Part shown: positions 5,098 to 26,053 of the stretch, piece after piece
Layout of the letters: each line of letters begins with the position of its first letter
How positions within the stretch are numbered: the stretch's first letter is position 1
DNA from: Acidobacteriaceae bacterium
GTDB taxonomy: Bacteria; Acidobacteriota; Terriglobia; Terriglobales; Acidobacteriaceae
NCBI GenBank assembly: GCA_003165795.1
Contig: PMWW01000180.1
Span: 5,966 to 45,677 of the forward strand
Length of the DNA: 39,712 bases
Direction of reading: 5' to 3'
The notes under the pieces: model-generated
Databases searched by the model: none
The model's input: the letters and a program-made list of their open reading frames with translations, nothing else
Told to the model about the DNA's origin: nothing
Program-made: the position numbers and the translations under genes

Positions 5098-5126
5098 GTC
5101 CCGCAAGTTCGTGGCAAAATTCAGCG
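5098..5126. repeat. Solitary repeat terminus, inverted copy of 4833-4861
   Basis: This 29-bp stretch is the reverse complement of 4833-4861 with one mismatch, the last 23 bp toward the centre being perfect. The two arms are about 236 bp apart and flank the element at 4869-4992. It is probably one end of a further, truncated element, cut short by the repeat at 5156-5287. Confidence 0.65.
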
Positions 5127-5155
5127 TAGTGTTTGCCAGGGCACGACTTCACAGT

Positions 5156-5287
5156 TTGCTGAAAAACTCGGTCTGAGGTGATTTTGAAGGGGCGTAGCTT
5201 TAGCTACGCCGTAGTAAGCCCTTTATTTTTGTTATCCCTCGGCGGCTTCGGTCGCCGAGGGATTTGCCCCTCCGACTTTTTCAGCAA
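5156..5287. repeat. Two-hairpin repeat element ending just after the HEAT gene
   Basis: The terminal inverted repeats TTGCTGAAAAACTCGG (5156-5171) and its complement (5272-5287) match at 15 of 16 positions. Hairpin one is a perfect GGCGTAGC-TTTA-GCTACGCC (5191-5210). Hairpin two is CCCTCGGCG/CGCCGAGGG (5236-5261). The spacer between the hairpins resembles those at about 37757-37785 and 39218-39238. The element lies 4 bp past the HEAT-protein stop codon and could act as its transcript terminator or 3' stabiliser. Confidence 0.7.
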
Positions 5288-5291
5288 CCGG

Positions 5292-6278: not shown

Positions 6279-6409
6279 AGACCGCAGCCGGCACCTCAGG
6301 ACAGGTTCCGAAGGTGCGCCCTTTCAAAACCCAAAATGAAAGCGCGTTGTCCGGCAACCGCTGTTCGGTAGTGGCTCAGTGGGCACGGTTGTGAAAGATA
6401 TCGGGCGTT

Positions 6410-7390: not shown

Positions 7391-7815
7391 GGTTTGCCCA
7401 GTTGCAAAAGCTCCCGGCGCTTCCTGCGGATCTTCTCTTCCAGTTCGTCCAGCAGCAAGGCATCGTGCTGGCCAACCGCGTCAACCAGAGATGAGAGCAA
7501 CAGCTCGCGAGAAGGCTGCGGTCCCGCCAGAAATCCGGCTACCAAGTCGCCCGCCCGCCTACGTTCCCATTCCTGGCTGGACAAATGAGCGGAATAGAGA
7601 AAAGCGCGCTCCGACTTCTGGCGATCCAACAATCCCTTCTTGAACAGCCGGTCGAGCGTGGTCATTACCGTGGTGTAGGCCAGCTTGCTTTCCAGCTTCT
7701 CCACCACGTCGCGCACGCTGCACTCGCCGACGGCCCAAACCACCTCCATAACATGGATCTCTAGCGGGCCCAGCATAAGTTGCCGGCTCGCACTTGCGGA
7801 TGAATTCCTAATCAA
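7387..7815 (-). CDS. BlaI/MecI/CopY-family transcriptional repressor
   Basis: This is a winged-helix repressor of 142 residues if it starts at the TTG at 7815. That start has GAGGA about 6 nt upstream and gives the usual family length. The frame stays open upstream to 8067, but that extension (Pro/Gly/Arg-rich) is unlike BlaI and is not accepted. The hallmark segments are LGPLEIHVMEVVW, CSVRDVVEKLESKLAYTTVMTTLDRLFKKGLL (recognition helix and wing) and a C-terminal helical dimer region. It overlaps the M56 gene by 4 bp and should be its proteolytic target. It probably represses its own operon and perhaps others. Confidence 0.87.
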   Translation of the reverse strand: MIRNSSASASRQLMLGPLEIHVMEVVWAVGECSVRDVVEKLESKLAYTTVMTTLDRLFKKGLLDRQKSERAFLYSAHLSSQEWERRRAGDLVAGFLAGPQPSRELLLSSLVDAVGQHDALLLDELEEKIRRKRRELLQLGKP

Positions 7816-8146
7816 GGTAAGTCCTCGTGCCAGAAGCTTAAAGCGGGCTCCTTCGTTTGTCAATTTAAAGGTGCTGGTTGCGGGTCGGCCGCCGTCCCGT
7901 AGTTCCCGTTGCGGAGAATACTCCGCTCCCCGAAAACTGACGAGGCCCGGTTCACCTAGAGCAGGTCCGGGGCCCCGCTCTGTATCGACTATTGCTGTTA
8001 GTGGATTACCGACTTTAGGGATTTTCGACCCGGCTCCCTGCGGGGCGTCGGCCGTCGCTTCGATCATCGAATTGAAGGCGTTTTTGTTGCCATGATGAGA
8101 CTTTTGTGCCGCCCATAATGGCGACGATTCATTATCGTTTCCGGAA

Positions 8147-8177
8147 ATCAGTAGTAACTACGTCATTAATAGTTGCT
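8147..8177. promoter_or_regulatory. Possible repressor operator in the divergent blaI / secreted-protein gap
   Basis: GTAGTAACTAC (8151-8161) is an 11-bp perfect interrupted palindrome. AGTAACTA is repeated inverted with one mismatch 9 bp further on (TAGTTGCT). BlaI-family operators often contain TAGTA/GTAGT half-sites, and this lies in the 7816-8370 gap between divergent genes. That is suggestive only. Nothing else was recognised in the gap. Confidence 0.25.
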
Positions 8178-8370
8178 TCTCCCTGTGGGCTGTGATACAA
8201 GTGCAGCACCCCCTAGGATGCTGGTTTTATTTTGGCAAGCAAAAGGCAAATTGCGGTCGGTTCCTCAGATCACGCCGTTTAACTACCACCCCTGATGTTT
8301 GGGAAATCGCTCCACGCGAGGCCATTCGCGCGCTGTGGAGATCACGTGGAGAAGAAGGAGAATGGGAAGA

Positions 8371-10074
8371 ATGACCAGAAGTAAAGTTATGATTGTGGGC
8401 TCGTCCATGCTAGCCGTGGGCGTGCTCCTACTTTGTGCCCTGCCAATGTCTGCGCAGGACAACAATACGTACATCAACCATGCGACGAGGTTTGGGATTT
8501 CGCCTCCGCTTCGGGACTTGGCCAAGCTGCCTCAGTCCCCGCACTACGGCTTTCACGAAGCTAACCCAGTTCGCCGTGTTCCGAAACGCGCCATCGGAGC
8601 GGTAGTGGATCCGGTGGAACAGAGCAGCCGTCCCGCTTCGGGAGTGGCTTATGGCATCGGCGCCAATTTACTCGGAGTGGGTCACGGCTTCCCGGGCTAC
8701 AGCGTTCCTGACGCTCCACCCGATACCACCATGGCAGTCGGCGATACCCAGATCGTACAGTGGGTCAACGTCTCCTACACGGTCTGCTCGAAGACTTCGC
8801 CCTACACCTGCGGGCCATCCATCGAGGGCAACACGCTTTGGAGCAGCCTCGGCGGGATTTGTGCCAGCAATAACGATGGTGACATCATCGCGCAGTGGGA
8901 CGTACAGGCCCATCGTTGGCTGCTGTCGCAGAACATCTTCACTGGGAGCTACGGAGTTTGCGTCGCTATTTCCACCAGTCCCGATGCCACTGGCACCTAC
9001 TACCTCTATGAGTTTCCCGTGGTAAACAGCGGTTTCCCCGACTATCCCAAGTGGGGCGTCTGGACCGCCAATTACGGCGAGACCTGGAACAACTTCGGTC
9101 CTGGCGGCAGCGGCTTCCGGGGACCGGTATTGTGCGCCTACAACCGCACCAAGATGTTGGTAGGCGACCAGACGGCAGAACAGATTTGCCACCAGTACAC
9201 GGCTAGCGAGGACAGCCTGCTGCCCGCCGACCGCGATTCGCCAATCGCTCCTCCCGCCGGCGAGGACCAGTTCGCTATCGGCAGCGTCGGCGACGTAGAC
9301 AACTCCCATCTGTCGCTGTACTCAGTACACGTCAACGACCTGAACGACTGGACGCAGGGCGCCACCTTCACTGGCGATAACAACTCGCAACTGTTGACCG
9401 TTGCTACCTACGATCCTTCCTGCAACGGCGCTTACGGCGGCGATTGCGTTCCGCAAAAAGGTATCAGCGACTTAGACGACTCCCTAGGCGATCGCCTGAT
9501 GTACCGTTTTGCTTATTGGGAGGACCAACCGCTTCCCAACGTCAACGCCACTCCGCCCTTGCCGCTGCCCGCGCAGCACTGGCTGGTGAACTTCGACGTG
9601 ACCGCTTCGGGTGGCAACATCGGCCCGCGGTGGATGGAAATCACCGCCCCGATCCGGGCCGTACCGCCTACCTCTCTCACTGTGTTCCAGCAGGGTACCT
9701 ACGCTCCCGACGGGAACTGGCGCTGGATGGGTTCGCTGGCTAGGGACAAGATGGGCGACATCCTGCTCGGTTACAGCGTGTCTTGCGGAAGCACCTGTCC
9801 CGGCGGCACCAACGGCGGAGTTTATCCGTCGGTGTACATCGCTGGACGCCAAGTCAACGACCCGGTGGGCCTTGGCAATTTGGAAGCAGAGACCCTGGTT
9901 GTTGCCGGCAGCGGTTCGCAGCCTGACACCGCCAATCGTTGGGGCGACTACAGCTCCATGCGCATTGATCAGGACGGTTGCACCTTCTGGTACACCCAGG
10001 AGTTCTACATGGTCACCGAGACCTTCGACTGGAGCACGCAGATCAATTCAGCGAAGTTCTCAAACTGCCAGTAA
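8371..10074 (+). CDS. Large secreted protein, possibly beta-propeller
   Basis: A 567-residue protein with a signal peptide (SKVMIVGSSMLAVGVLLLCALPMSAQ, cleavage after AQ or nearby). The mature part is rich in Trp, Tyr, Gly and Asp and has several Cys pairs. Repeated strand-turn patterns (NGDIIAQWDVQAHRWLLSQN-like and NWRWMGSLARDKMGDILLGYS) suggest a beta-propeller, though no named family or catalytic motif is recognised. ATG 8371 is chosen because AAGGAG lies 10 nt upstream and the signal peptide then starts correctly; ATG 8362 and the open frame from 8299 are alternatives. It is monocistronic and ends at a strong terminator. Function unknown; exported or surface role inferred. Confidence 0.8.
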   Translation: MTRSKVMIVGSSMLAVGVLLLCALPMSAQDNNTYINHATRFGISPPLRDLAKLPQSPHYGFHEANPVRRVPKRAIGAVVDPVEQSSRPASGVAYGIGANLLGVGHGFPGYSVPDAPPDTTMAVGDTQIVQWVNVSYTVCSKTSPYTCGPSIEGNTLWSSLGGICASNNDGDIIAQWDVQAHRWLLSQNIFTGSYGVCVAISTSPDATGTYYLYEFPVVNSGFPDYPKWGVWTANYGETWNNFGPGGSGFRGPVLCAYNRTKMLVGDQTAEQICHQYTASEDSLLPADRDSPIAPPAGEDQFAIGSVGDVDNSHLSLYSVHVNDLNDWTQGATFTGDNNSQLLTVATYDPSCNGAYGGDCVPQKGISDLDDSLGDRLMYRFAYWEDQPLPNVNATPPLPLPAQHWLVNFDVTASGGNIGPRWMEITAPIRAVPPTSLTVFQQGTYAPDGNWRWMGSLARDKMGDILLGYSVSCGSTCPGGTNGGVYPSVYIAGRQVNDPVGLGNLEAETLVVAGSGSQPDTANRWGDYSSMRIDQDGCTFWYTQEFYMVTETFDWSTQINSAKFSNCQ

Positions 10075-10130
10075 CTCTGGCGCTTCCGGGTCACACGGCC
10101 CGCGGGAAGTAGCAACCTGAAAAGCTGAAT

Positions 10131-10164
10131 GGGGCATCCTGGTAACGGGATGCCCCATTTTTTT
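10131..10164 (+). terminator. Rho-independent terminator
   Basis: A 9-bp GC-rich perfect stem GGGGCATCC/GGATGCCCC (10131-10139 and 10148-10156) with an 8-nt loop is followed by a run of seven T. It is the clearest intrinsic terminator in the window and closes the secreted-protein gene. Confidence 0.9.
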
Positions 10165-10180
10165 CACGGTTAGAACCTAA

Positions 10181-10200
10181 AGGGAAAACTCTGATCAAGT
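10181..10200. repeat. Solitary terminus of the 1135/4869 repeat subfamily
   Basis: This stretch matches the left terminus of the element at 4869 (AGGGAAACTCTGATTAAG) with small differences. No partner terminus or hairpins follow, so it looks like a decayed half element. Confidence 0.4.
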
Positions 10201-10245
10201 TGCTGTTCAGGTAGGGCCGGCCTAAGAAGAACTCTTCCCCGAACT

Positions 10246-10476
10246 CTATTTACTGCTGTTTAAGCTACCGGCTGGATCAAAAACGCGGTGCACAACTCGC
10301 GTGCTTCGACGCCTTTCCATCGGCTGACAAATGTGCCTTACCTCTAACTGGGCCAGGTCCATTGCACGATAAGCACGGGCAACCGTCAAATAGCAAAGCT
10401 TGCAAATCGAATCTAGTGTCCCATCTTGGTTCGGACGGTGTGCGTATTGACGGTCAGCTGGCGATTCTGTTCCCAT
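10246..10476 (-). CDS. Small CxxC protein, probably zinc-binding
   Basis: A short protein of 76 residues if it starts at ATG 10476, which has AGGGA a few bases upstream; ATG 10494 would add six residues. It contains HRPNQDGTLDSICKLC followed by a helix and HIC. I recall short acidobacterial hypothetical proteins with a similar Cys pattern, but this could not be checked. The two clustered Cys plus a later His/Cys could bind zinc. No partner gene is evident. The 10165-10786 gap otherwise shows only the NikR upstream region. Confidence 0.5.
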   Translation of the reverse strand: MGTESPADRQYAHRPNQDGTLDSICKLCYLTVARAYRAMDLAQLEVRHICQPMERRRSTRVVHRVFDPAGSLNSSK

Positions 10477-10786
10477 TCTCTTCCCTCGGCTCATTCTTGA
10501 CGGGCTTGTTGCTGGCGCATCGACTGCGGGCTAGGCAACGCTACTCTATTATCCGGCTGCAGCGCAATCAATAATATAGTGACCTGTTCGCCGGCAATGC
10601 CCGTCTGATCGACCGCGAAGCTTTCAACTCGCTTGGACGTCTAATGGGAAGCTACAAAGTCAACTCGCTAGGGTGATGTACCACGCCCTGCCGAGCAAGC
10701 CCGTGGGCGCCCGCCGCGCGTAGCCTGATCGTACTACATGCTACTATTTGCCTTTTGGATGTAATTCTTGTCTGGGAGTTTTCCCT

Positions 10787-11257
10787 ATGAGTACCCTCAG
10801 CCGTATCGGCGTCGCACTCGATTCCAGCCTGCTGGAGCGGTTTGACCACTACATCGCCGCGCAAGGCCACAACAACCGCTCCGAGGCGTTTCGCGACCTC
10901 ATTCGCGATCGGCTGAACGCGTCGCGTCTGCTATCGCCCAAGGCGTTGGTCGTGGGCACCGTGACTCTCATTTACGATCATCACTCCCGGCTTCTGCCGG
11001 AGAAGCTGATGGAGTTGCAGCACCAGTATCACGAAGTCATCATCTCCACCGTACATTCCCACCTTGACCATGATATGTGCCTGGAAGTCGTGGTGGTCAA
11101 GGGCCGGCTCGGAGAGGTACAGGAATTGTCCGATCGCCTGATCGGCATCAAAGGTGTGCAGCACGGCAAGCTGGTCATGAGTTCTCCAGACGCCTATCTG
11201 CCACCGCCCGACCAGCACCCAAACCCACATCCACCCAAGCATCGGCACTCACACTAG
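10787..11257 (+). CDS. nikR: NikR-type nickel-responsive transcriptional regulator
   Basis: A 156-residue regulator starting at ATG 10787, with GGGAG 8 nt upstream. Residues 1-48 form the ribbon-helix-helix DNA-binding domain (LSRIGVALDSSLLERFD, NRSEAFRDLIRDRL). Residues from about 55 form the ACT-like nickel domain. The high-affinity Ni ligands of E. coli NikR (His76, His87, His89, Cys95) align with His79, His90, His92 and Cys98 here, so nickel sensing should be intact. An unusual His/Pro-rich tail (PNPHPPKHRHSH) ends the protein and could bind extra metal. No nickel transporter lies beside it. The nearest nickel enzyme is the hydrogenase on the minus strand, whose operon starts about 18 kb away; a regulatory link is plausible but not shown. 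Confidence 0.93.
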   Translation: MSTLSRIGVALDSSLLERFDHYIAAQGHNNRSEAFRDLIRDRLNASRLLSPKALVVGTVTLIYDHHSRLLPEKLMELQHQYHEVIISTVHSHLDHDMCLEVVVVKGRLGEVQELSDRLIGIKGVQHGKLVMSSPDAYLPPPDQHPNPHPPKHRHSH

Positions 11258-14674: not shown

Positions 14675-15113
14675 CCATCGCAGAGTTACTTTGACCGCGG
14701 CGTGACCGCATGACCGCGGAAGTTCGATGGCAATATGTGAGGGCATCAGGCTTATCAAGCAATTTCAAAATCATCTTGAACTCCCTACAAGGGGTAATAC
14801 CCATGCTGGATGAACGGCGTTCGTTCAAGGCCCGAACCGCCGAGGCCCTGGAGCAGGCGGTCACCCCAGGCTCTTCCTTGCATCACCCCAGACAATGCGC
14901 GTTCCTGGTTCCGTCACTGCGGAATATACTATACACCTTGATTGAAAATGCTCTAGAGCCCGAGAATCGAAGGTTGCGTTGAGATACCGTGGGCCTTGCG
15001 TATCTCCGAGATCAAGATTGGCTAAAGCCTTAAGTCTCCTTGTAGTCCAACGCACACAGCACAATCATTTTGAGCACTACTACTGCCCAGGCTATTCTGA
15101 TGCACACCACCAC

Positions 15114-16535
15114 TTAGAACGGACCTCCCAATGCAAGATAAAGGTCGATGCGATTGGCGATGAGTTCGTACCGCAAATACGTCTCCGCCGTCTGAGTTGC
15201 CAACACTACGCTTTCCAGTTGCAACACTGGCGAGAGATCGGTCTGACCTACGTCATACTTCACTTTTCCCAAGTTGAGCGCATCCTCGGTACTTTTCAAA
15301 GCCTCAGCCGCATCCTTCTCCTGATCCTTAAGGTAGCGCTCGTTGGTGAGAGTTACCTCCACATCATCGAAGGCCTGCAATAGAGTCTGACCGTAGAGCG
15401 CCAGCGCCGCCTTCTGGTTTTGGTTGGCAATTTTCACCTGCGCTTGGAGATAGCCGCCGGTATAAAGCGGTGCCAGCAGGTCGGCCCCAGCCGTCCAAAC
15501 CCAGGGACGAAACTTGAGGTCTTGGTAAATCTCATTGGTGAGGTAACCGCCGGCGCCGTTCAGAGCGAACGACGGCAGCCGCGCCGCCTGCGCCGCCTGC
15601 ACAAGGTGAAAGGCGGCGTTGAAGGTATGCTGCGCCGCCAGAATGTCGGGACGGCGCTCCAGCAATTGCGACGGCAGACCGGCAGGAACCGGCGGCGGCA
15701 GGGCGGTGAGGGCGCTGGCGGTCTTGATTTCGCCCGCCGGATAACGGCCCACCAGCACTTCCAATCCGCGTATGACTTGCAGGTAGGCATTGCTGACCTG
15801 CGCCAGTTGGGCTTGCGATTGCGCAAGCTGCGCCTGCGCGAAGTCTACTTGCTGTTGCTCGGCGTTGCCTACCTGGAATTGGGCAATGGTAACGTCAAGC
15901 AGTTGCTGGTCAACTAGAACATCTTCCTGCGCGTACCTCTGCAGCACTAGGGTACAAGTCGCCAGATACCACAACTTCGCCGTGGCCGCAGCCAGCGACA
16001 TGCGCGCCCACTGGTAATCAGACTCGGTTGCCGCCATACCTTGTTTGGCAGCCGCCGTCTGGGAGCGGATCTTCGCCCAAACGTCCAATTCCCACGACAC
16101 ACTGCCCAGCAGGCTCGAAGCATTGAAGTTTCCTCTAGTCTGCCCTTGGGCATTCTTTTGGTGGAAGCGGCCCAGGTACTTGGCTTCCCCCGCGACGGCG
16201 ATGAGAGGCATCATCTGAGCGTGTACTTCGGTCACCACGCTGGCTGCCACCTGGATGCGGGTCGCCGCGGCCTTCAGGTCAAGATTGTTCTGGATGGCTT
16301 CGGCGACGACGGCCTCCATTTGCGGATCGTTGAAACTTTTCAGCCATCCTGTTTCCACCGGAGCGGGACTCGTGCCCTGGCTGGTCCATTGGTCCGGGAC
16401 CTTAGTAGCGGGCGGTAGCGAGTTCTTCACCGTCTCCGTGGTCGATGGCGGCTTCTTCACCGCACAAGCGCAGAGCAGCAGCGTCGCGCAAATCCCTAGC
16501 GCCAGTGTTGTTCGGAAGCTCATGCTTGCGTTCAC
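15114..16535 (-). CDS. TolC/NodT-type outer-membrane efflux lipoprotein
   Basis: A 473-residue outer-membrane factor. GTG 16535 is preceded by GGAGG, and the signal peptide ends in a lipobox with the likely lipidated Cys24. The body has the two-fold OEP repeat: long helices such as DLKAAATRIQVAASVV and QAQLAQSQAQLAQVSNAY, the LLERRPDILAAQHTFNAA segment typical of NodT proteins, and YLRYELIANRIDLYLALGG at the end. It would form the trimeric channel of a tripartite export system. It lies 15 bp downstream of the adaptor gene in a probable four-gene operon that contains no recognisable pump. Confidence 0.93.
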   Translation of the reverse strand: MNASMSFRTTLALGICATLLLCACAVKKPPSTTETVKNSLPPATKVPDQWTSQGTSPAPVETGWLKSFNDPQMEAVVAEAIQNNLDLKAAATRIQVAASVVTEVHAQMMPLIAVAGEAKYLGRFHQKNAQGQTRGNFNASSLLGSVSWELDVWAKIRSQTAAAKQGMAATESDYQWARMSLAAATAKLWYLATCTLVLQRYAQEDVLVDQQLLDVTIAQFQVGNAEQQQVDFAQAQLAQSQAQLAQVSNAYLQVIRGLEVLVGRYPAGEIKTASALTALPPPVPAGLPSQLLERRPDILAAQHTFNAAFHLVQAAQAARLPSFALNGAGGYLTNEIYQDLKFRPWVWTAGADLLAPLYTGGYLQAQVKIANQNQKAALALYGQTLLQAFDDVEVTLTNERYLKDQEKDAAEALKSTEDALNLGKVKYDVGQTDLSPVLQLESVVLATQTAETYLRYELIANRIDLYLALGGPF

Positions 16536-16550
16536 CCTATCCTCCGGGTC

Positions 16551-17774
16551 TCAATAGCCAGTGAAGACAAAATTGGTCCAGGTGTACCAGCGCATGATGA
16601 CCCGCCGGATGATAAAAAGCTCTTTCCAGTCTTCACCCTGAATCGATATCCAGCCGTTGGTGCCGATGGGCAGGATGGTGTCCTTGAATTTGTCTTCGAG
16701 GTTAAGGATCACGTACATGCGATCAGGAAAGGCCGGCTCGTAAGCTCGCTTCAGACGGCCTTCGGCGTAAAGTGCCCCGGAACCGGTGGCTCGCTCGACC
16801 GCCAGCACGCGGGCGTGCAGGATCTTGCCGGGAAGAGCAGGGGTCGCCACCTCGGCTTCGGCGCCGGGCTTCACGACGTTGACGTAGTTCTGCATGACGG
16901 TCACAACCAGCAAGGGCTTGGTCCGTTGGCCGATAAAGGCCATCACCGGCCCTATCGAGACCATGGTTCCGGGCTGCAGCGTGACCTGAGTTACATAACC
17001 ATCGTCGGGGGCGATGATCGTAGTCTGGTCCACGCTCCATTGCGCGCCCGTGACTTCGGCATTCAGACCACTCAGTATGTCCGGCTGAATCTTGATGGCT
17101 TCCTGCTGCGCGGTTTGCGCCTGTACCAGTTGGGCCTGGGCGGCGGCCAGTTGTTGCTTCTGCGCTGCCATTTGCTGATTTTGGGCTGCCACCTGATCGG
17201 TCAGAGACTTTACGTCAGTCTCATAACGCTCGACTTCGAACAGGCTGCCGGCGTTCTTGCTTTTCAGCTCTGTGTATTCCTTTAAGCGGGTCCTGGCCAG
17301 GTTGAGTTGCGATTCGGTGGCGCCGATGGCGGCTTGCGTAGCCTTTATCTGCGCTTCCACAGCTTGCACTTGTGCGCTGGCTGAATTCACCGTTTGCGTG
17401 GTTTGGAGAATAGCGGTCGAAGTTCTGATCTCGGCCTCGGCATAGGCGGATTGAGCATGGTGCAGTTGGTCCACATAAGGTTGCGGATCCATTCTGAACA
17501 GGACCTCACCTTTTTTCACGAAGCTGTCATCTTTAACATCCACCTCGGTGACTTTGCCTGGCACACGAGCTTCAATCTGGGTGGTCAGACCGGAAACGGT
17601 CGTACCGATGGAAAAAGGCTGGGTATAGTTCATTCCGAACAAAACAACCAGTAGGCCGATGAAGCCCACCGCTCCGACTAGAATCTGCGCCAGAAGATTG
17701 AACGGCAGCACGCGAAACTTGATAAACACAAGGTAGAGGCCGACGCAGTACACTACCGCCAGAAAGGCAATCAT
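16551..17774 (-). CDS. HlyD/EmrA-type membrane fusion protein (YibH-like)
   Basis: A 407-residue adaptor with two N-terminal hydrophobic segments (about residues 2-19 and 26-48), then a biotinyl-lipoyl-like half motif (VSGLTTQIEARVPGKVTEVDVKDDSFVKKGEVLFRMDPQPY). A long Ala/Gln-rich coiled-coil hairpin follows (about 100-225), then the second lipoyl half (IIAPDDGYVTQVTLQPGTMVSIG) and a beta-barrel domain. The two-helix start and a DUF3302 neighbour match the E. coli yibH/yibI arrangement. It would bridge the inner membrane to the OMF encoded downstream. The start codon overlaps the previous stop by 4 bp. Confidence 0.92.
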   Translation of the reverse strand: MIAFLAVVYCVGLYLVFIKFRVLPFNLLAQILVGAVGFIGLLVVLFGMNYTQPFSIGTTVSGLTTQIEARVPGKVTEVDVKDDSFVKKGEVLFRMDPQPYVDQLHHAQSAYAEAEIRTSTAILQTTQTVNSASAQVQAVEAQIKATQAAIGATESQLNLARTRLKEYTELKSKNAGSLFEVERYETDVKSLTDQVAAQNQQMAAQKQQLAAAQAQLVQAQTAQQEAIKIQPDILSGLNAEVTGAQWSVDQTTIIAPDDGYVTQVTLQPGTMVSIGPVMAFIGQRTKPLLVVTVMQNYVNVVKPGAEAEVATPALPGKILHARVLAVERATGSGALYAEGRLKRAYEPAFPDRMYVILNLEDKFKDTILPIGTNGWISIQGEDWKELFIIRRVIMRWYTWTNFVFTGY

Positions 17775-17989
17775 TGAGCCACCCCCAGGCGCTGCGCCAG
17801 TTCGCGGTATTGGCCTTCCACTACAGTGAGGCGCTGTGAGGTTTCCGCCAGGGCCTTCTTAATCGTCGCGTAGTCGGCCGGTCCCGTGGGAGCGGCGTTT
17901 CCGGCCTTTAGTCGGTCTTTCTCACGATTCTTCTGATCGAGGTATCGCAAGACCAGCACATAGCAGATAACCAGTATTGCGACTAGCAT
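17771..17989 (-). CDS. Small membrane-anchored coiled-coil protein
   Basis: A 72-residue protein with one N-terminal helix (LVAILVICYVLVLRYL). A charged linker and a predicted coiled coil follow (TIKKALAETSQRLTVVEGQYRELAQRLG). It overlaps the DUF3302 gene upstream by 7 bp and the HlyD gene downstream by 4 bp, so its synthesis is tightly coupled to both. The layout resembles phage-shock PspB-like or small accessory subunits of export complexes. I do not assign a family. Confidence 0.75.
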   Translation of the reverse strand: MLVAILVICYVLVLRYLDQKNREKDRLKAGNAAPTGPADYATIKKALAETSQRLTVVEGQYRELAQRLGVAQ

Positions 17990-18357
17990 GGCTGGGGTCC
18001 TCCTGGGCCCGAGGATCCGGCCTTAGGAAGTACAGCGCGCAGCCCGTTTTCCAGGTTTTTGAGGCGTTCGGAAATCAAGGAGATCGTAGCCGCCAATTCG
18101 GCGCTTTCGGATTCGCTGATCGCGATCGCCGCACCTTCACCGGTGCGAGGACGGATGAACGCAGCAGCCAACGCCACGATCCAGATTGGAAACACCAAAA
18201 TTCCTACCCAGCCTGCGATATTGATGGCCTCGGCCCAAGGACTGTGGCGTGACCTTGCAACTGCTCCCGGGGTATATGCGAGCAGCAGAACCAACCCTAC
18301 CCCTAGAAGAATCAGAAACAGGAGTATCAGCAGCGAGAAAACATCAAGAAAGGTCAT
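17983..18357 (-). CDS. DUF3302 (YibI-like) inner-membrane protein
   Basis: A 124-residue protein with two membrane helices (about 5-27 and 45-68). The loop between them carries ARSRHSPWAEAINIAGWVG, matching the H-P-x-A-x-A-I-x-x-A-G-W-V signature I associate with DUF3302/YibI. A C-terminal soluble tail contains a short coiled coil (AELAATISLISERLKNLENGLRAVL), similar in design to the tail of the next protein. GGAG lies 7 nt before the ATG. As the first gene of the operon with the adaptor and OMF, it probably belongs to the same complex. Molecular role unknown. Confidence 0.8.
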   Translation of the reverse strand: MTFLDVFSLLILLFLILLGVGLVLLLAYTPGAVARSRHSPWAEAINIAGWVGILVFPIWIVALAAAFIRPRTGEGAAIAISESESAELAATISLISERLKNLENGLRAVLPKAGSSGPGGPQPC

Positions 18358-18376
18358 GTCAAGCTCCGTGGACGCC

Positions 18377-18398
18377 GTGCGGGCCCGAAGGCCCGCAC
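18377..18398. terminator. Strong GC hairpin between sulfatase and DUF3302 genes
   Basis: A perfect 9-bp stem GTGCGGGCC/GGCCCGCAC with a CGAA tetraloop lies in the 61-bp gap after the sulfatase stop codon. No T-run follows on either strand, so it may be a factor-assisted terminator, an mRNA 3' end stabiliser or another repeat-derived hairpin. Confidence 0.5.
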
Positions 18399-18418
18399 TA
18401 CTCTCTCGAGAAACCGAC

Positions 18419-20047
18419 TTAGTCCTGTGGAAGTTTGTATCCCTTTGGAGGTACGGAGAGGTCCTTAGGCAACTCCGGCAGCGCCTCCCAAAAAACTTCC
18501 CCGTCCAGGCCGAGGAAGCGATTCGGATATTCCTTCATTTCCGCAAATGTCTGTTTCAACACCATGCCAAGTGGCGGCATAATCCAGCCGTGGTCATGTT
18601 CAGGGCTTCGGCCGGGAGAAGTCTTCATGGCATCGCCCATGGGTGCTGAGCCCATAAAGACGATATCGTGTAGTTCGAAGGGATCCATTACCAGGTCGTA
18701 CAAAGATGCGGCTGTCTGGTTGCGGTTCACGCCCAGCCAGGAATCATGAGAGTTGTACGTCAGCTTCCAGCGTCCATTGCGCACAGCAATGCCACCACCG
18801 GCGCTGAAGAACAAAACGGTGTCACGCTTTCCAGGCCCCTTGCCCAGGATGAGATCGGATTGATCGATGCCGTCGAAGACAATCGGTGTGCCGCTGTTGT
18901 CCACCCAATGACGCGGAGGCGCAGGCAGGCCCGCTTGTGCTGCCAGCGTAGGATACCAATCCATGCAGGAGAACATGTCGTGGCTCACCACGCCAGCGGG
19001 AACGTGGCCGGGCCAACGAACCATAGCCGGAACCCGGAAGCCGCCTTCGAAGGTACTGCTCTTCTCGCCGCGGAAGGGAGTTTCGCCAGCATCGGGCCAA
19101 GTATCAATCCAGGCACCGTTATCGGTAGTCCAGACGACTATGGTGTTGTCGTCAATCCCGGCTTCTTTGAGGGCGGCCATGATCTGACCGGCCTGCCGGT
19201 CGAGAATTACCAGGCCATCAGTGTAGGGATACTGACCGGGAGACTTACGTACGTCTTCGTCGGGAACAACCGTCGGATTATGCATGCGCATGAAATTCAG
19301 ATCGATAAAGAAGGGCTCGCTGTCTTTGGCATGCTGTTTGATCCACTTGATGACATACTCCGTTTGCCATTGGTCGATCAGCTTTAACTCCGCGGTGCGG
19401 AATTCGCGGCCGTCGAGCATGGCGGTGGCTTGCTTCTCCCCAGGATTTTGCTCCCACATCTTCAGATTCATCTTGGCCCAATACGCCATAAACTGCGGGT
19501 CGTTGGTTGGAAAGTCGGGGTAGAAGCTTAGGTCGTCGTAGGTGTACACGTTTCCGTAGTAAGGCAACATGTAGTGCATCTCGTCAAAGCCATGTTGGGT
19601 AGGGTAGTACTCGGGCTTGTCGCCGAGGTGCCATTTTCCCGTCTGCATGGTGTGATAGCCGGCCTTCTTCAGATACTGTGGAAGGGTAATTTCCGCCTTG
19701 CTGATGCCGTTTGGGTCGCCCGGTATGAATACATTGAGAATGCCGGAACGAACCGGCTCGCGGCCGGTCATTACAGCCAGACGCCCGAGGGTGCACGTGG
19801 GCTGGGCGTAGTAGTCGGTGAAACGCATGCCTTCATTGGCGAGGCGGTCCAGGTTGGGCGTGGGTGCACCGCGGTCCGCGCCGCCACCGTAGACGCCTAA
19901 GTCCATCCAGCCTACGTCGTCGGTCATCAGAATAATGATGTTCGGTTTTTTCGTCTGGGCGGATCCCAGCTTAGTATTCAGTACGACGACGATAAGCAGG
20001 GCTAATGTCCACCAGTCAGATAATTTCGTCAAACGAACTGCTTTCAT
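18419..20047 (-). CDS. Arylsulfatase-family exported hydrolase
   Basis: A 542-residue type I sulfatase. It has a signal peptide (LALLIVVVLNTKLGSA, cleavage near residue 30) and a strong AAAGGAG before the ATG. The metal-binding aspartates lie in MTDDVGW (43-44). The formylglycine site is CTLGR with Cys85, then TGR, GKWHLG (138-143), and a C-terminal WTTDNGAW metal motif. The canonical site is C-x-P/A-x-R. Leu at the third position is unusual, so modification efficiency or the maturase needed is uncertain. The substrate is not predictable. It lies just upstream of the DUF3302/HlyD/OMF operon in the same direction, but a strong hairpin separates them. Confidence 0.9.
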   Translation of the reverse strand: MKAVRLTKLSDWWTLALLIVVVLNTKLGSAQTKKPNIIILMTDDVGWMDLGVYGGGADRGAPTPNLDRLANEGMRFTDYYAQPTCTLGRLAVMTGREPVRSGILNVFIPGDPNGISKAEITLPQYLKKAGYHTMQTGKWHLGDKPEYYPTQHGFDEMHYMLPYYGNVYTYDDLSFYPDFPTNDPQFMAYWAKMNLKMWEQNPGEKQATAMLDGREFRTAELKLIDQWQTEYVIKWIKQHAKDSEPFFIDLNFMRMHNPTVVPDEDVRKSPGQYPYTDGLVILDRQAGQIMAALKEAGIDDNTIVVWTTDNGAWIDTWPDAGETPFRGEKSSTFEGGFRVPAMVRWPGHVPAGVVSHDMFSCMDWYPTLAAQAGLPAPPRHWVDNSGTPIVFDGIDQSDLILGKGPGKRDTVLFFSAGGGIAVRNGRWKLTYNSHDSWLGVNRNQTAASLYDLVMDPFELHDIVFMGSAPMGDAMKTSPGRSPEHDHGWIMPPLGMVLKQTFAEMKEYPNRFLGLDGEVFWEALPELPKDLSVPPKGYKLPQD

Positions 20048-20225
20048 CTTTTCTCCTTTGTCACCAGGTAGTTTCGCAGCCGTACTCCGCGGTGTCAGTT
20101 ATGTATTCCGCTTCGAGCGGTATAGTGGCCGACAAGTCGAATAGGTCACGTTCGAGCACCTTTACCCAACGGCCGAATCCGGGCACGATATCGGCCACTC
20201 TCCGCAAAATGAGGGCCAATACCGA

Positions 20226-20429
20226 TTAGCCTTGCGATTGTCGAAACATCTCGGCGTAAACCTCCTGAGGTGTAAACCCTAAACGAACCACCTGAGCTCT
20301 AACCAGATCGGCAATGGCGCCTGGTTGACCCATCCGCTTGGAGATTTCCCTCTTCAATTGCGCGTGGCGGGCGTGTTCAATGACCTTCTCGCCGTCTTCT
20401 TCGACTTTGACCTTATGCCGGTGCTTCAT
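20226..20429 (-). CDS. Small basic hypothetical protein
   Basis: A 67-residue protein. ATG 20429 is chosen because a GGGGGAG-type ribosome-binding site lies about 9 nt upstream; the open frame reaches 20465. It is rich in Lys, Arg, His and Glu (KHRHKVKVEEDGEK), with a helical second half (GAIADLVRAQVVRLGFTPQEVYAEM). No family is recognised. It lies about 180 bp upstream of the sulfatase in the same direction. In the following gap, 20466-20845, I see no convincing gene; 20510-20620 is AT-rich. Confidence 0.55.
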   Translation of the reverse strand: MKHRHKVKVEEDGEKVIEHARHAQLKREISKRMGQPGAIADLVRAQVVRLGFTPQEVYAEMFRQSQG

Positions 20430-20845
20430 ACACTGTCTCTCCCCCTCAATGGTGTTAAACAGCAAGCATGGTTAAGTTAGAATTGGCTACTTCGACCGTG
20501 GGGAATTCCTGTCCCAGCGCAGTTAATTGAAATAAGAAAACAAGGGGAAAAACACAAAGCCACCTAGTGTTTTTCACAAGTTAATCTCCGTTAGAAAGTT
20601 TGTTAGTGAAACGATAAACAGCTTGGGCGATTGGCTGCCAAGGTCGCCGATGGTTGTTATGGAGCAGCCGTGAAGATGGCAACCGCCCGCGCCTCCATGT
20701 TGGTAAACTGTGGGGGATCTGCTGGCAATTGCCTTCATCGGTCTCTCCTTAGCAGTAGGCAGCGCCGCAACCGTGTCTCGTGCCGTCAGTGACGTCGCTA
20801 CGCTCCTCGTTGCTCAACTGGAACGCTCACAGTGCGGCTCAGTAT

Positions 20846-21031
20846 TTAGACCGGCGGGCTCTGCTGTAACTCTGCTTCGGCAGCCAGCCAATCCTCCACG
20901 TCCAGACCGTCAGCACATCCGCGATGCTCGTAGAGATCATAGGCCCGCTTGCGGATGACCTCCTCAGTCGCGTAGCCGGCCCCATTCCCCGAAATCAGAA
21001 CTTCCACCGCTGCTTTCTTGGCGGTTTTCAT
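20846..21031 (-). CDS. DUF2934-type small protein
   Basis: A 61-residue protein with the DUF2934 signature EEVIRKRAYDLYEHRG...DVEDWLAAEAEL, which I recall as frequent in Acidobacteria and some Proteobacteria. ATG 21031 has AAAGGAG about 12 nt upstream, in a leader (AAAGGAGAAAAG) identical to that of the sulfatase. A long open frame joins it to the HAD remnant upstream, but only because that gene has lost its stop through a frameshift. The original HAD stop is at 21087-21089, just ahead of this gene. Function of the family is unknown. Confidence 0.8.
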   Translation of the reverse strand: MKTAKKAAVEVLISGNGAGYATEEVIRKRAYDLYEHRGCADGLDVEDWLAAEAELQQSPPV

Positions 21032-21086
21032 AGCGATGCTTTTCTCCTTTTGATTGAAATAATGATCACCTTTCCCACGCAAGAAT

Positions 21087-21712
21087 CTACTTCCAGTCGT
21101 TCTTGATACTGATGACAACCCAGCCCTTTGACTTGCTTCGTCATATAGCGCTTGGGTGAAAGTTCCTACCTTGGTATCAGGTAATCCCATGGCCGGGCCG
21201 TACGCATATTCGCGCCAAGTGTCGTCGTGCAGCACGGTCATCATTAACGTTGCTCCACCGTCCGCCTGGGTATATTCCAGCATTTGTTGGTCGCCGGTTG
21301 AGTTGCCGAACGCGGCCTTGGGATGGCGTCCGATGAACAGACAAATGTCTTCCGGCTTTCCTGAGAAATCGTCGTTCAACAGTAGCTTCGGGGGCCTTAC
21401 AAGAATGCCCTGGCCTTGTTTGTTATAGGTATATTGCGTTTCCAAGGCCGAGCCGATGACCTGCTCCGGAGGAATGCCGTACACCTGTTCGCCGTATACA
21501 CGAACGAAATCCTGGCCGCCGCCGGTCACGATGTAGGTCTTGTAACCATTGGCGCGGAGGTACTGCATCACCTCCAGCATCGGCTGGTAAACAAGGTCGG
21601 TGTAGGGCCGATTCCAGCGCTGGTCCGATGCGGAGGCCAGCGCCCAAACGGCGGTACGCGTCGCGACAGCTTGCTTCTGAATGACGGGCTCGACGGTAGC
21701 AGTCGCGCTCAT
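21087..21712 (-). pseudogene. HAD-superfamily phosphatase, N-truncated and frameshifted
   Basis: From about residue 30 of the frame starting at ATG 21712, the sequence matches the C-terminal two thirds of a periplasmic-type HAD hydrolase. It has YQPMLEVMQYLRANGYKTYIVTGGGQDFVR, PKLLLNDD, AAFGNSTGDQQMLEY and GLPDTKVGTFTQALYDEA. The N-terminal part with the nucleophile motif (DxDGT) is absent. Near 21125-21135 a one-base shift moves the frame. Correcting it gives GWVVISIKNDWK and a stop at 21087, the usual family ending. IS remnants begin about 200 bp upstream and probably caused the truncation. GGAG before ATG 21712 means a truncated product might still be made, without catalysis. Confidence 0.8.
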
Positions 21713-21942
21713 GCAGGCTCCAAGAATTGGCCGTGCGGAACGAGTGATGGGCAGCGGGGAGGGACGTCGGATGCGCGGCCAGATGATCCGGGTCGTACTG
21801 GATTGTCGCCCACGACGACTTAAGTCGGAAAGGTCTTCTGTCACCTCAGTGTGTGATTATCTAGCACGATAGATCACAAGAGTTGCGCCATTGACAGCCA
21901 TTTAAGTGATGGCCATGACCATACCTTATGTGACGGGGGTGA

Positions 21943-22325
21943 CTGAACAAATTGATGCAGCTGGAATGGGTGCCGGGGAGTTTCCAGGTCATTCGTCATG
22001 TTCGCCCCAAGCTGTGCTGCACGGGGTGTGATGCGATTGTGCAGGCAGCGGCGCCAAGCCGTCCCATCGATCGCGGCCTGGCGGGTCCGGGACTGCTGGC
22101 GCATGTGGTCACTGCCAAGTTCTGTGATCACTTGCCGTTGTATCGCCAATCGGAGATCTATGGGCGCGAGGGCGTCGAGTTGGATCGCTCGGCGCTGGCC
22201 AAGTGGGTGGGAGACGCCAACCAGTTGCTGCAGCCACTGGTCGAAGTTCTGCGCCGCTATGTCATGGCGGCTGACAAGTTGCACGGTGACGACACGCCGG
22301 TTCCGGTGCTGGCTCCCGAGTTGTA
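21943..22325 (+). pseudogene. IS66-family transposase (TnpC) internal fragment
   Basis: The frame encodes VIRHVRPKLCCTGCD, LAHVVTAKFCDHLPLYRQSEIYGREGVELDRSALAKWVG and LHGDDTPVPVLAP, the central part of IS66 TnpC including the Cys pair and one of the DDE-region aspartates. Both the N-terminal third and everything after LAP are missing. The 3' break lies exactly where an opposing IS91 transposase fragment begins (about 22316-22325). Confidence 0.85.
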
Positions 22326-22976: not shown

Positions 22977-24539
22977 CTACTGGATACACTTCAGGATATG
23001 ACCGTCAGAATTGCGTGTGAGTGATGCGAGCAACTGTCCTTGACGATTTCGTACGGTCAGAACCAGGGGCATGCTTCCGGGAAGAGCGTGAGTCGCGCAC
23101 GCATTGCACGGATCGTAAGCCCGAAAGGCCATCTCAATCTTGTTCAGAACTCCCGCGGGAACTTCTCCGCGATGGATCAAGCCCTTGGCGGCTTTGTCCA
23201 CGCTCATGGCGATGCGGGCTGCGTTGTTCTGGGTGGCCACAATGAGATTGGCGCGTTGCACAAGGCCATGTTCATCGGTCTGATAGTGGTGGATCAGGGT
23301 ACCGCGTGGCGCCTCGACCACGCCTACTCCTTCGGTTGGGGTCGCGGTTGGCAAGGTGCGGTATTCCGGTTCCAGCAGCTGGCTGTCGGCGGCAAGCTCG
23401 CGCATCCGTTCCGCCGCATAGAGCAATTCGATGAGTCGTGCCCAGTGATTGGCAAGCGTATGGTGCACAGGTTTGCCGCCTAGCTTGGCAAAGAATCGTT
23501 CGTACTCTTTCTGCGCCAGCGGTGTGGCCATGCCGTCGGCCGCATTCAAACGCGCCAGCGGAGCCACGCTGTATATGCTGGTATCGTCGCCATCGGTGAA
23601 TCCCTTCCAGCCCAGCGGCTTCAGATAGCAGAACTTGGCATAACTCCACGGCTCGACGTGTTCGGCAATGACGCTGGCATAATCATTAGCCTTAAACTTC
23701 TTCCACTCCTTACCCTCTGGAGTGACGACACGGATCTGCCCGTCGTAGAAGTTGACCCGGTTAGCATCGTCAACCATCCCCATACAGAAGGTGCGATGGC
23801 TGTAGTCGTCCCCGGTAATCAGATCCAGGTACGCACGGTTGTTCAGAACGATATCGTCAAACAGGTCAAGGGTAAAGGTGGCGAAGGCCACGGCGTCTTC
23901 CGCCACAGCCTGGAACTGGCTCTGCATCTCAACGGTAAAGCGCTTGGCGACTCCACCCGGCAGTCCAAAAACCGGGTGTACGGGCTTGCCGCCCACTAAC
24001 GTAATCAAATTGCGCAGGCGCCGGCGCATGCTGATGACTTTCTTCGCGTTCTCGATCCCTACGGCTTCGATTACCCCCAGGATGTTGCGTTGCGCGGCGG
24101 GAGCGTCAGGCCCCAGCACGAAATCGGGCCCTCCCAGGTAATAGAAATGCAGGCTGTGGTCCTCGACCATGAAGGCGCTGTACACGATTTCGCGGATTTT
24201 CTTCGCCGTCTCAGGAGGAGTAACGTGATACACGGCGTCGAGTGCTTTCGTGGCGGCCATGTGATGGGCCGTAGGACACACGCCACAAATACGCGAGGTG
24301 ATCTGCGGCATCTCCTCCACTGGTCGTCCCTGCACAAACTTCTCGAAGCCTCGCAACTCAGGTACCTGGAAGTAGGCCCGATCCACTTCGCCGGCGTCGT
24401 CCAGAAACACTTCGATTTTTCCGTGGCCTTCCAGGCGCGTAACCGGGTCGATAGTGACGCGCCGTCCAGGATACGGATCGTTCGCCTTCCCGGCGGACTG
24501 GCGAGAGATTTTCTGGACTGGCATGGTTCCATCTGGCAT
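22977..24539 (-). CDS. mvhA: Group-3c [NiFe]-hydrogenase large subunit (MvhA-like)
   Basis: A 520-residue catalytic subunit that oxidises H2 at the NiFe(CN)2CO site. The L1 motif RICGVC (Cys85, Cys88) and L2 motif DPCNACATH (Cys478, Cys481, His484) supply all four nickel-site cysteines. The 36 residues after His484 would be the tail removed by a maturation protease if processing follows the usual rule. The pattern matches the MvhA/F420-non-reducing type rather than uptake hydrogenases. ATG 24539 is preceded by GAGG about 7 nt upstream. It is the last gene of the hdrCBA-mvhDGA operon, 33 bp after mvhG. No hyp maturation genes lie in this window. Confidence 0.95.
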   Translation of the reverse strand: MPDGTMPVQKISRQSAGKANDPYPGRRVTIDPVTRLEGHGKIEVFLDDAGEVDRAYFQVPELRGFEKFVQGRPVEEMPQITSRICGVCPTAHHMAATKALDAVYHVTPPETAKKIREIVYSAFMVEDHSLHFYYLGGPDFVLGPDAPAAQRNILGVIEAVGIENAKKVISMRRRLRNLITLVGGKPVHPVFGLPGGVAKRFTVEMQSQFQAVAEDAVAFATFTLDLFDDIVLNNRAYLDLITGDDYSHRTFCMGMVDDANRVNFYDGQIRVVTPEGKEWKKFKANDYASVIAEHVEPWSYAKFCYLKPLGWKGFTDGDDTSIYSVAPLARLNAADGMATPLAQKEYERFFAKLGGKPVHHTLANHWARLIELLYAAERMRELAADSQLLEPEYRTLPTATPTEGVGVVEAPRGTLIHHYQTDEHGLVQRANLIVATQNNAARIAMSVDKAAKGLIHRGEVPAGVLNKIEMAFRAYDPCNACATHALPGSMPLVLTVRNRQGQLLASLTRNSDGHILKCIQ

Positions 24540-24572
24540 AAGAGCACCTCGAACAAAACTCCCGAATCAGGT

Positions 24573-25544
24573 CTAAACCCCGCGTTTGTTATGGATCAGT
24601 GAAGCCGGCAAGCTGTAACGATAAAACGTGCCGGCGGGATCGGGGATGGTGGCCAGGATCTGGTCGATTTCGCTTTCGTCTTGACTGTCGATCAAGGAAG
24701 CAATCGCGGAAAGCGCTTTCGCGCCCTGCTCCCGCACTCGCCCAGGCGCGCCACAGCAGCCAGTACAAGGCATGTTCCCTTCAACGCACCGCGCCTCGCA
24801 ACCCGCGCGCGTCGCCGGTCCCAGACAGAGCAGACCCTGGGCGAGCAGGCATTGGGTTTCATCGATCTGGATCTCCTGCGGCCGGCGGAATGCTTTCAGT
24901 GCAATCTTGTCCGGCTTGGAGTCCTTACGCGGGCATTCGGTGCACAGCGCCTCGTCGGGCGCCAGAACGCTTCCTTTCGTGGGAGGATGTTCGCCCAGAA
25001 GCGTAAGCACGGCTCGCGTGACGATCTTCGGCTGCGGCGGACATCCGGGGACGTAGTAGTCAACCTCAACCACTTGATCGAGGCTGCGAACCCGGTCGGA
25101 GAAATAAGGCAGCGTCAGCTCACCGTGCCTATCGTTGAGGGGCAAGCCCGGCATCACCCGATCGGGGTTCTCCGTCGTGGGAGCATCAAAATACACCGCT
25201 TGCAGGATGCTCTCACGCGTGAAGAAATTGGCCAGTCCAGGAATGCCTCCCAGGTGCGAGCATGAGCCAAACGCAACCAGGTACTTCGACTTGCGGCGCA
25301 GCAGTCCGGCCATCTCTTCCTGCTCCGAGGTGCGGATTGCGCCGTTCAAGAAGGTCGCCAGGATGGAGCCATCCGGCATTTGCTCGACATCGCTACGTTT
25401 GAAATCGAGAGCCACTGGCCAGAACACGATGTCGGCGGCCGCGACCACATCGAGTATCTGCTCCGCCACGTCGACCACCGCCTCTTCGCAACCGCCGCAG
25501 GAGGCACACCAGTAGAACGCAATCTTAGGTTTCTCCCGGGTCAT
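24573..25544 (-). CDS. mvhG: [NiFe]-hydrogenase small subunit (MvhG-like)
   Basis: A 323-residue Fe-S subunit that passes electrons from MvhA to MvhD. The N-terminal FYWCASCGGCEE (Cys13, Cys16, Cys19), GSCSHLGG and PGCPPQP segments bind the proximal [4Fe-4S] cluster. Further cysteines in the second half (LCTECPRKD, CLGPATRAGCEARC, CTGCCG) fit the medial and distal clusters. No twin-arginine signal is present, so the enzyme is cytoplasmic, as expected for group 3. The start codon overlaps the mvhD stop by 4 bp. Confidence 0.94.
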   Translation of the reverse strand: MTREKPKIAFYWCASCGGCEEAVVDVAEQILDVVAAADIVFWPVALDFKRSDVEQMPDGSILATFLNGAIRTSEQEEMAGLLRRKSKYLVAFGSCSHLGGIPGLANFFTRESILQAVYFDAPTTENPDRVMPGLPLNDRHGELTLPYFSDRVRSLDQVVEVDYYVPGCPPQPKIVTRAVLTLLGEHPPTKGSVLAPDEALCTECPRKDSKPDKIALKAFRRPQEIQIDETQCLLAQGLLCLGPATRAGCEARCVEGNMPCTGCCGAPGRVREQGAKALSAIASLIDSQDESEIDQILATIPDPAGTFYRYSLPASLIHNKRGV

Positions 25545-26053
25545 ACGCCCACCTCCTGCGGTACCTGCTCGCCAGAACCGCCGCGGACGAGGGCCGGCCC
25601 GCGTTTCAGTTGTAGCGGTCCGAGCTTTCGCAGCTTCTCCACCATGTCGTCAATGACCACGCGCACCCGATCACCTTCCGCGGCAGAGATCCATTCCAGG
25701 CGAAAGCGCTCTTCTTCGATGCCGAACTGCTCCAGCACCCGCTTCAGCAGCCGGGCCCGGCGCAGACAGTTGTAGTTGCCCTGCTGATAGTGGCAATCAC
25801 CGGGATGACATCCGCCGATAAGCACGCCGTCGGCTCCGTGGGCGAAGGCGTCCAGCACAAACTGGGGATCAATGCGCCCCGAACACATGACCCGGATGAC
25901 GCGCACGTTGGGGGCGTACTTGATACGGGAAGTTCCCGCCAGGTCCGCCGCCAGATACGTGCACCAGGTGCAGAAGAAGCCCACGATGCGCGGCTCCGCG
26001 ACTTCGGTGGACACCTGACCGTTTCCTGAAACCGACTCGATGGCGTTAGGCAT
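25541..26053 (-). CDS. mvhD: MvhD-type [2Fe-2S] linker subunit
   Basis: A 170-residue protein (ATG 26053 overlaps the end of hdrA by 8 bp; the open frame further upstream is hdrA antiphase sequence). It has the MvhD Cys pattern FFCTWC (28, 31), MCSGRIDP (57), GGCHPGDCHY (82, 87) and NYNC (96). In methanogens MvhD carries a [2Fe-2S] cluster and links the hydrogenase to HdrA. Its place between hdrA and mvhG fits that role. The C-terminal 25 residues are basic and variable. Confidence 0.93.
   Translation of the reverse strand: MPNAIESVSGNGQVSTEVAEPRIVGFFCTWCTYLAADLAGTSRIKYAPNVRVIRVMCSGRIDPQFVLDAFAHGADGVLIGGCHPGDCHYQQGNYNCLRRARLLKRVLEQFGIEEERFRLEWISAAEGDRVRVVIDDMVEKLRKLGPLQLKRGPALVRGGSGEQVPQEVGV

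Follow-up and report, generated by a model that had tools for sequence, protein, structure and literature searches.

How would an operon work that encodes the adaptor and the outer-membrane channel of an export machine together with two small membrane proteins, and no recognisable pump? The question is raised by a stretch of 39,712 nucleotides from Acidobacteriaceae bacterium (assembly GCA_003165795.1, contig PMWW01000180.1, positions 5,966 to 45,677 of the forward strand), the whole of which is referred to here as the window. Four genes run along its minus strand from 18357 to 15114, in the order DUF3302 protein, 72-amino-acid (aa) protein, HlyD-type adaptor and NodT-type outer-membrane channel. 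The first junction is an overlap of 7 bp, the second an overlap of 4 bp and the third a gap of 15 bp. The coordinates, families and tight packing are as a preliminary description of the sequence had given them. The parts of the operon are as follows.

17983-18357, minus strand: DUF3302 protein, 124 aa (PF11742, E 2.6e-13)

17771-17989, minus strand: 72-aa protein with an N-terminal membrane helix, a basic stretch and a coil (homologues conserved in the same slot; codon pattern)

16551-17774, minus strand: HlyD-type adaptor of the YibH/YiaV class, 407 aa (HlyD_D23, E 8.3e-14; tree with 22 DUF3302-linked adaptors)

17622-17771, minus strand: N-terminal membrane helices of the adaptor, residues 2-51 (2-22 and 27-51; structure model and hydropathy)

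17028-17483, minus strand: long alpha-helical hairpin of the adaptor, residues 98-249 (98-172 and 178-249; structure model)

16554-16619, minus strand: C-terminal tail of the adaptor with R-x-[VI]-x-x-R, residues 386-407 (in 22 of 22 DUF3302-linked adaptors and 0 of 8 others)

15114-16535, minus strand: NodT-type outer-membrane channel, 473 aa (TIGR01845, 255.6 bits; OEP, E 9.2e-35)

The DUF3302 protein exceeds the cut-off of PF11742 (50.3 against 32 bits), and the channel that of the NodT family (TIGR01845, outer_NodT, 255.6 against 210.05 bits). The adaptor is a near miss just below the cut-off for RND adaptors (TIGR01730, 92.5 against 94.9 bits) and falls far under that for EmrA/EmrK (TIGR00998, 88 against 390.8), and the 72-aa protein is unmatched in both Pfam and NCBIfam at E 0.01. 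When the window was searched for pump matches, nothing was found adjoining the operon; the sole match is an ABC exporter-type (MsbA-like) gene at 33950-35806, 15.6 kb away, so that the operon does lack a pump, as had been described. With no energised RND, MFS, ABC or FUSC pump encoded alongside the adaptor, the locus falls outside what defines a tripartite efflux pump.

We surveyed 25 sites at which a DUF3302 gene is paired with an adaptor gene (the window, L007 with two sites, L008, L009, L010, L013-L021, L032, L033 and L050-L057). They were drawn from Escherichia coli K-12, 15 of the 77 plasmid-collection records that match the adaptor, three further acidobacterial genomes and near copies, and span Acidobacteriota, Pseudomonadota and Bacteroidota; not all are independent, as L020/L021, L016/L057 and L015/L050 are close. 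L011 and L012, which surround DUF3302 matches under the cut-off, and L005, L006, L030 and L031 stand outside this set. Pumps were sought by tblastn (E 1e-3) with AcrB, AaeB, EmrB (partial), YdhK (partial), MacB and the MsbA-like gene of the window, a reference set that leaves SulP, MATE, SMR and wholly new pumps outside, over flanks of differing length (as short as 7.0 kb at L008 and 5.4 kb at L010). None of the 25 sites has an exporter of the RND, MFS, FUSC or ABC type adjoining the pair, and 22 of them gave no match to any of the six references in the stretch examined. The three sites with matches are the window itself, L053, where the match is to sugar ABC importer genes by annotation, and L051, where ABC ATPases 0.85 kb downstream were judged by eye to belong to an ECF-type importer. 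The same test found a pump at three of the four further adaptor loci examined from the genome of the window (ABC at L037, MFS at L039, RND at L040); it also detected all five E. coli pump loci, trivially, since those loci supplied the references. A pump consistently beside the operon in relatives, which according to the preliminary description would have spoken against a pumpless unit, is thus not what the survey found.

The full four-gene order is kept in five acidobacterial genomes, namely that of the window, L020 (with its near copy L021, both Terriglobia metagenome-assembled genomes, MAGs, and counted as one), L032 (genome G415), L033 (G526) and L010 (G136, whose contig is also labelled L023). 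A NodT-type channel gene follows the adaptor in these five and at L008, L009, L013, L014 and L018. At the last of these, from Persicobacter (4920-9500), an open reading frame (ORF) of 512 aa lies between the DUF3302 and adaptor genes, and the adaptor is split into two frames.

The adaptors were compared in a tree of 22 of the 25 DUF3302-linked proteins (leaving out the interrupted L018 and the near copies L021 and L057) and eight others, namely EmrA, AaeA, YdhJ, AcrA, MacA and three from the genome of the window. All 22 DUF3302-linked adaptors, YibH and YiaV included, lie on one side of a branch that separates them from the other eight with a support of 100/99, and within them the five adaptors of the four-gene operons form a subgroup (100/100); the tree is rooted at its midpoint only, and AcrA, MacA and the L037 adaptor sit on long branches. 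Near the N-terminus, hydrophobicity peaks twice (residues 3-17 and 31-48, approximately) in 22 of 22 DUF3302-linked adaptors, with a third and weaker peak in those of YiaV, YibH and L056, whereas the eight comparison adaptors have one or no such peak in their first 90 residues. The motif R-x-[VI]-x-x-R within the last 30 residues divides the two sets as sharply (22/22 against 0/8). The adaptor group thereby acquires two tell-tale features, a second membrane helix and a C-terminal tail, both being features found here rather than a published definition of the class. The window adaptor is also preceded on its own strand by a DUF3302 gene, a trait by which the YibH/YiaV class was itself partly collected. 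An amphipathic character of the tail was considered and dropped; its hydrophobic moments are no higher than those of the comparison adaptors, and we therefore claim the tail as a sequence motif only. In the model of the window adaptor, the hairpin helices are 75 and 72 residues long, with a predicted local distance difference test score (pLDDT) of 77-96 over most of their length and lower values toward the C-terminal end of the hairpin. Among solved structures, EmrA (8zar, E 2e-14) comes closest to it in sequence. Judged by gene order and phylogeny, this comparison shows that the lack of a pump is no local loss but a trait held stably across a distinct group of adaptors.

The 72-aa ORF has homologues, 37-66% identical to it, in the same slot and frame in L020/L021, L032, L033 and L010. 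Among the window, L020, L032 and L033, third codon positions differ at 0.39-0.59 per codon and the first and second at 0.13-0.34, a ratio of 1.6-2.6. Because of these same-slot homologues and this codon-position pattern, the ORF is, on comparative grounds, a real gene and not a chance frame. An alignment of the family searched against 396 genomes of the phylum gave two clear matches, in the genome of the window (E 2.9e-40) and in G136 (E 4e-34); two further matches (E 1.6e-4 and 3.4e-4) fall within frames 1177 and 445 codons long and were set aside as apparent chance coils. The protein was unmatched at 19 of the 25 DUF3302-adaptor sites, with no genome-wide search made in other phyla, and by this distribution it cannot be essential to the general mechanism. 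Its residues 15-30, which follow the single membrane helix, are basic (6 K/R, 3 D/E), and it probably adds a cytoplasmic coil. Solved structures gave chance-level coil matches only to the 72-aa protein (best E 0.06) and none to the DUF3302 protein at E 1; the model of the latter, of low confidence (mean pLDDT 64), has two membrane helices at about residues 3-36 and 42-68 and a C-terminal helix at 82-115, and hydropathy was used alongside it. The two small proteins had been described as sharing one design, but the likeness amounts to a 22-column coil match (hhalign probability 6.2%), and common descent is thus unsupported. Comparisons of the DUF3302 protein with DUF1656, the family of AaeX and YdhI (0.3%, from just two DUF1656 sequences), and of the 72-aa protein with PspB (3.1%, 22 coil columns) gave still lower probabilities.

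The preliminary description had called such a unit undescribed, which is too strong. E. coli K-12 carries the DUF3302-adaptor pair twice, as yiaW-yiaV and yibI-yibH, both annotated without a function. As in the window, the DUF3302 gene directly precedes a two-helix HlyD-type adaptor of the same tree group, with no pump beside it; unlike in the window, no NodT, 72-aa or sulfatase gene adjoins, and the adaptors are 25-26% identical. The pair without a pump is therefore already known, if functionally unexplained, and it is the four-gene form, with its 72-aa subunit and its link to a sulfatase, that is new. What the E. coli pairs do without is present in the acidobacterial form: its own channel, a third small subunit, and an enzyme that recurs next to it and gives a hint of the cargo. 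The AaeX-AaeA-AaeB and YdhI-YdhJ-YdhK systems likewise place a small membrane protein gene directly before the adaptor gene, but they contain a FUSC pump, their one-helix adaptors lie outside the DUF3302 group, and their DUF1656 proteins are not detectably related to DUF3302 in the two-sequence comparison above. EmrA-EmrB-TolC shares the long-hairpin adaptor, yet EmrB has no counterpart here, and EmrA has one N-terminal helix and no C-terminal tail. RND pumps of the AcrAB/Mex type with NodT channels share a channel above the family cut-off, whereas the present adaptor is under the TIGR01730 cut-off and the operon contains no RND pump.

In the literature, published papers mention a mutation near yibI (PMC7858067), enter yiaV in a table as a membrane fusion protein that is uncharacterised (PMC10971958), list it as a predicted efflux component (PMC3646849) and tie it by association to clinical Vibrio vulnificus isolates (PMC10485832); they also report that a yiaW insertion had no effect on the phagosome (PMC5495878) and the use of yibH as an insertion site (PMC5852967). 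The portions available of two reviews (PMC8277102, PMC13328181) contain nothing on a DUF3302-linked adaptor class under the terms searched. A search of the literature outside subscription papers found no function assigned to DUF3302 and no description of the 72-aa protein.

By its gene content and adaptor phylogeny, then, the operon is a member of a widespread, uncharacterised class made up of a DUF3302 protein and a two-helix HlyD-type adaptor, extended here by a NodT channel and a 72-aa subunit. For its working we favour, at a rough probability of 0.45, a pumpless adaptor-channel bridge across the envelope, whose inner-membrane base would consist of the adaptor helices, the DUF3302 protein and the 72-aa protein. 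An oligomer of the adaptor most likely spans the distance between the inner membrane and the NodT channel by means of its long helical hairpin, which in the four-gene form would dock on the co-encoded channel. At the inner-membrane end, the two adaptor helices together with the DUF3302 and 72-aa proteins would close and anchor the structure, with no dedicated pump. The resulting conduit or bridge would take in its cargo from the periplasm or at the inner membrane's outer face; passage might be passive or gated and might proceed with or without an energy source, and the cargo may, in several acidobacteria, be linked to the neighbouring sulfatase. That the base is built from the operon's own parts is the simplest reading, because the class never occurs with a contiguous exporter, its adaptors have an extra helix and their tail is conserved. 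The preliminary description had proposed the two small proteins as the missing inner-membrane unit. Small membrane proteins as substitutes for a pump become more plausible, because the adaptor group has two helices and a tail that the eight comparison adaptors lack, but the 72-aa protein, with no match at 19 of 25 sites, cannot be indispensable to such a unit in general. The earlier tally of inner-membrane parts was also too low; the adaptor itself adds two membrane helices at its N-terminus, and the operon therefore holds more inner-membrane protein than had been counted. We hold more tentatively a bolder form of this bridge, a self-contained conduit in which the two-helix adaptor oligomer and DUF3302 (with the 72-aa protein in acidobacteria) would form a gated base, dock on the NodT channel and move a cargo, possibly a product of the sulfatase, without an ATP- or proton-driven pump, the two E. 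coli pairs being simpler copies. If the group truly works without a pump, it would break with the three-part scheme that is standard for Gram-negative export.

Several observations weigh against a pumpless bridge. The adaptor model has a mean pLDDT of 56 and is confident in the hairpin only, and that of DUF3302 reaches 64. The 72-aa protein and the NodT channel are missing at many sites, and no energy-coupling motif turned up, though no search was aimed at one. Transporter genes do lie close in places: at L051, one that by eye looks like an ECF-type importer begins 275 bp downstream, and at L015 and L050 the adaptor is followed on its own strand, after 100-120 bp, by a SulP gene (by annotation). 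A divergent AcrA-type adaptor at L010 is cut off by the contig end, so that an RND pump may lie close there. In the genome of the window, locus L038 (C182, 6832-9972) encodes an adaptor and an outer-membrane channel with no detected pump; its adaptor lies outside the DUF3302-linked class, in the EmrA-like group, and a missing neighbour pump therefore need not mean a pumpless machine. The same genome gave 22 matches to RND pumps, of which ten approach full length, so that an unlinked pump could serve.

These last points feed the main rival, in which the adaptor and NodT channel are recruited by an RND, MFS or ABC pump encoded elsewhere and the DUF3302 and 72-aa proteins are accessory, as AaeX is with AaeA-AaeB. 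We regard such a borrowed pump as a serious possibility. Besides the RND matches and the pump-free L038 pair of another adaptor class, the genome of the window contains a 204-aa ORF with a FUSC domain and no adaptor detected around it, and E. coli AaeX and YdhI provide a precedent for small membrane proteins beside an adaptor and a FUSC pump. On the other side, an exporter is never contiguous across 25 sites in three phyla, unlike at the pump-linked controls, the adaptors form a group of their own with extra membrane parts, and no sequence kinship between DUF3302 and DUF1656 was detected, albeit with two DUF1656 sequences only.

The operon might instead encode not a transporter but a structural or envelope-maintenance tether that serves barrier, lipid or lipopolysaccharide (LPS) homeostasis, with the channel merely anchoring its outer end, which we consider unlikely. 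Deletion of yiaW reportedly raises the transformation efficiency of E. coli (a study cited in PMC12844161), and YiaU, whose gene lies next to yiaV in E. coli K-12, regulates yiaT and the waa LPS operon (PMC9068703); the passages in question do not, however, show YiaU regulating yiaV. Lipid-related genes occur nearby, patatin at L013 and L016 and pqiB at L056, L057 and L016, but they vary between sites, and the dedicated NodT channel of the four-gene operon points to the passage of a substrate. That the operon is a decaying remnant of a tripartite system after loss of its pump we regard as very improbable. Its patchy occurrence and the apparently broken and interrupted copies at L022 and L018 would suit decay, whereas the codon-position pattern shows selection on the DUF3302 protein, the 72-aa protein and the adaptor, the order is the same in five genomes, and the adaptors fall into a single pump-free group.

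Two genes lie upstream of the operon on the same strand, and the nearer one bears on what the proposed bridge might carry.

18419-20047, minus strand: sulfatase with an N-terminal signal-like segment, 61 bp upstream of the DUF3302 gene (PF00884, E 1.8e-47)

20846-21844, minus strand: HAD-like hydrolase with DUF2934, a weakly linked neighbour (relative downstream of the operon in L010)

The sulfatase is well above the PF00884 cut-off (162.6 against 25 bits). A same-strand upstream sulfatase is present in three of the five four-gene genomes (the window, L020/L021 and L032), twice with a radical-SAM protein: in L020/L021 this protein lies between sulfatase and operon, and in L032 it does so together with a 194-aa ORF, more sulfatases following downstream. 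Both radical-SAM neighbours, presumably sulfatase maturases, match Pfam Radical_SAM, and that of L032 alone also matches SPASM. The remaining two four-gene genomes have no upstream sulfatase; the operon is flanked by a divergent gene for a Cache-domain protein in L033 and by the divergent AcrA-type adaptor in L010. Of the two three-gene acidobacteria, L008 has such an upstream sulfatase on the same strand and L009 none; the former weighs little, because its genome (G104) carries 55 sulfatases, against eight in that of the window. Outside Acidobacteriota, a sulfatase match was found at 1 of 17 sites (L052, a divergent arylsulfatase with one gene between). Chance estimates for the link are P 3e-5 (at least three of five genomes, 2.5-kb reach) and P 1e-3 (at least three of six genomes, 5-kb reach, L010 counted as a miss), both crude, made after the pattern had been seen and from genomes with counted sulfatases only, that of L020 being uncounted. 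The sulfatase is probably a functional neighbour of the operon. Sulfatases usually carry the formylglycine motif CxPxR, CxAxR or SxPxR. The window sulfatase reads CTLGR, outside [CS]-x-P-x-R and [CS]-x-A-x-R, while those of L020/L021 (SSPTR) and of L032 and L042 (CSPTR) fit. Between the sulfatase and DUF3302 genes lies a strong G+C hairpin (18376-18398; z -1.84, 7 of 200 shuffles equally good); considered as a possible terminator, it has no T run, and the scanner made no call there.

The HAD-like hydrolases of the window and of L010 (4500-5333) are related (49% over 144 aa) in two distant acidobacteria, and a relative was found at no other surveyed site. DUF3300 and DUF2950 genes recur at L009, L015 and L050, and DUF1254 at L017, L019 and L052; PMC4653623 describes DUF3300 and DUF2950 genes as universally co-localised. 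On the rhizobial plasmids of L015 and L050, genes for a SulP anion transporter and a polyphosphate kinase follow directly after the pair (8279-9979 and 9259-10959, respectively). Taken with the sulfatases elsewhere, SulP at these two sites possibly reflects a sulfate theme.

The genome of the window comprises 4.95 Mb in 208 contigs. DUF3302 is rare, with matches above the cut-off in 4 of the 396 genomes sampled from the phylum and 3 of the 399 sampled from the class, the genome of the window being counted in both, and is absent from the only genus-mate sampled (G683). DNA of G683 is 74% identical over the neighbouring hydrogenase region (23079-28013) and has no match across 14956-22316 of the window. 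Because DUF3302 is rare and missing from the genus-mate, and because this stretch is unmatched while the hydrogenase region matches, the operon block is, on this comparison, accessory. Rfam gave no match at the gathering threshold in the window. In the Acidobacteriaceae MAG of L022, a fragment (433-1645) 91% identical to residues 11-241 of the window adaptor runs straight into channel sequence, and is either a broken copy or an assembly error. Directly downstream of the operon, the 138 bp at 14818-14955 are 89% identical to a site on a different contig of G683 and possibly represent a mobile or repeated element. Farther along the window, genes for a NiFe-hydrogenase, MvhD-like (FlpD), FAD/Fer4, cysteine-rich CCG and Fer4 proteins stand in a row (22977-29501), a set that we take to resemble the Mvh/Hdr type.

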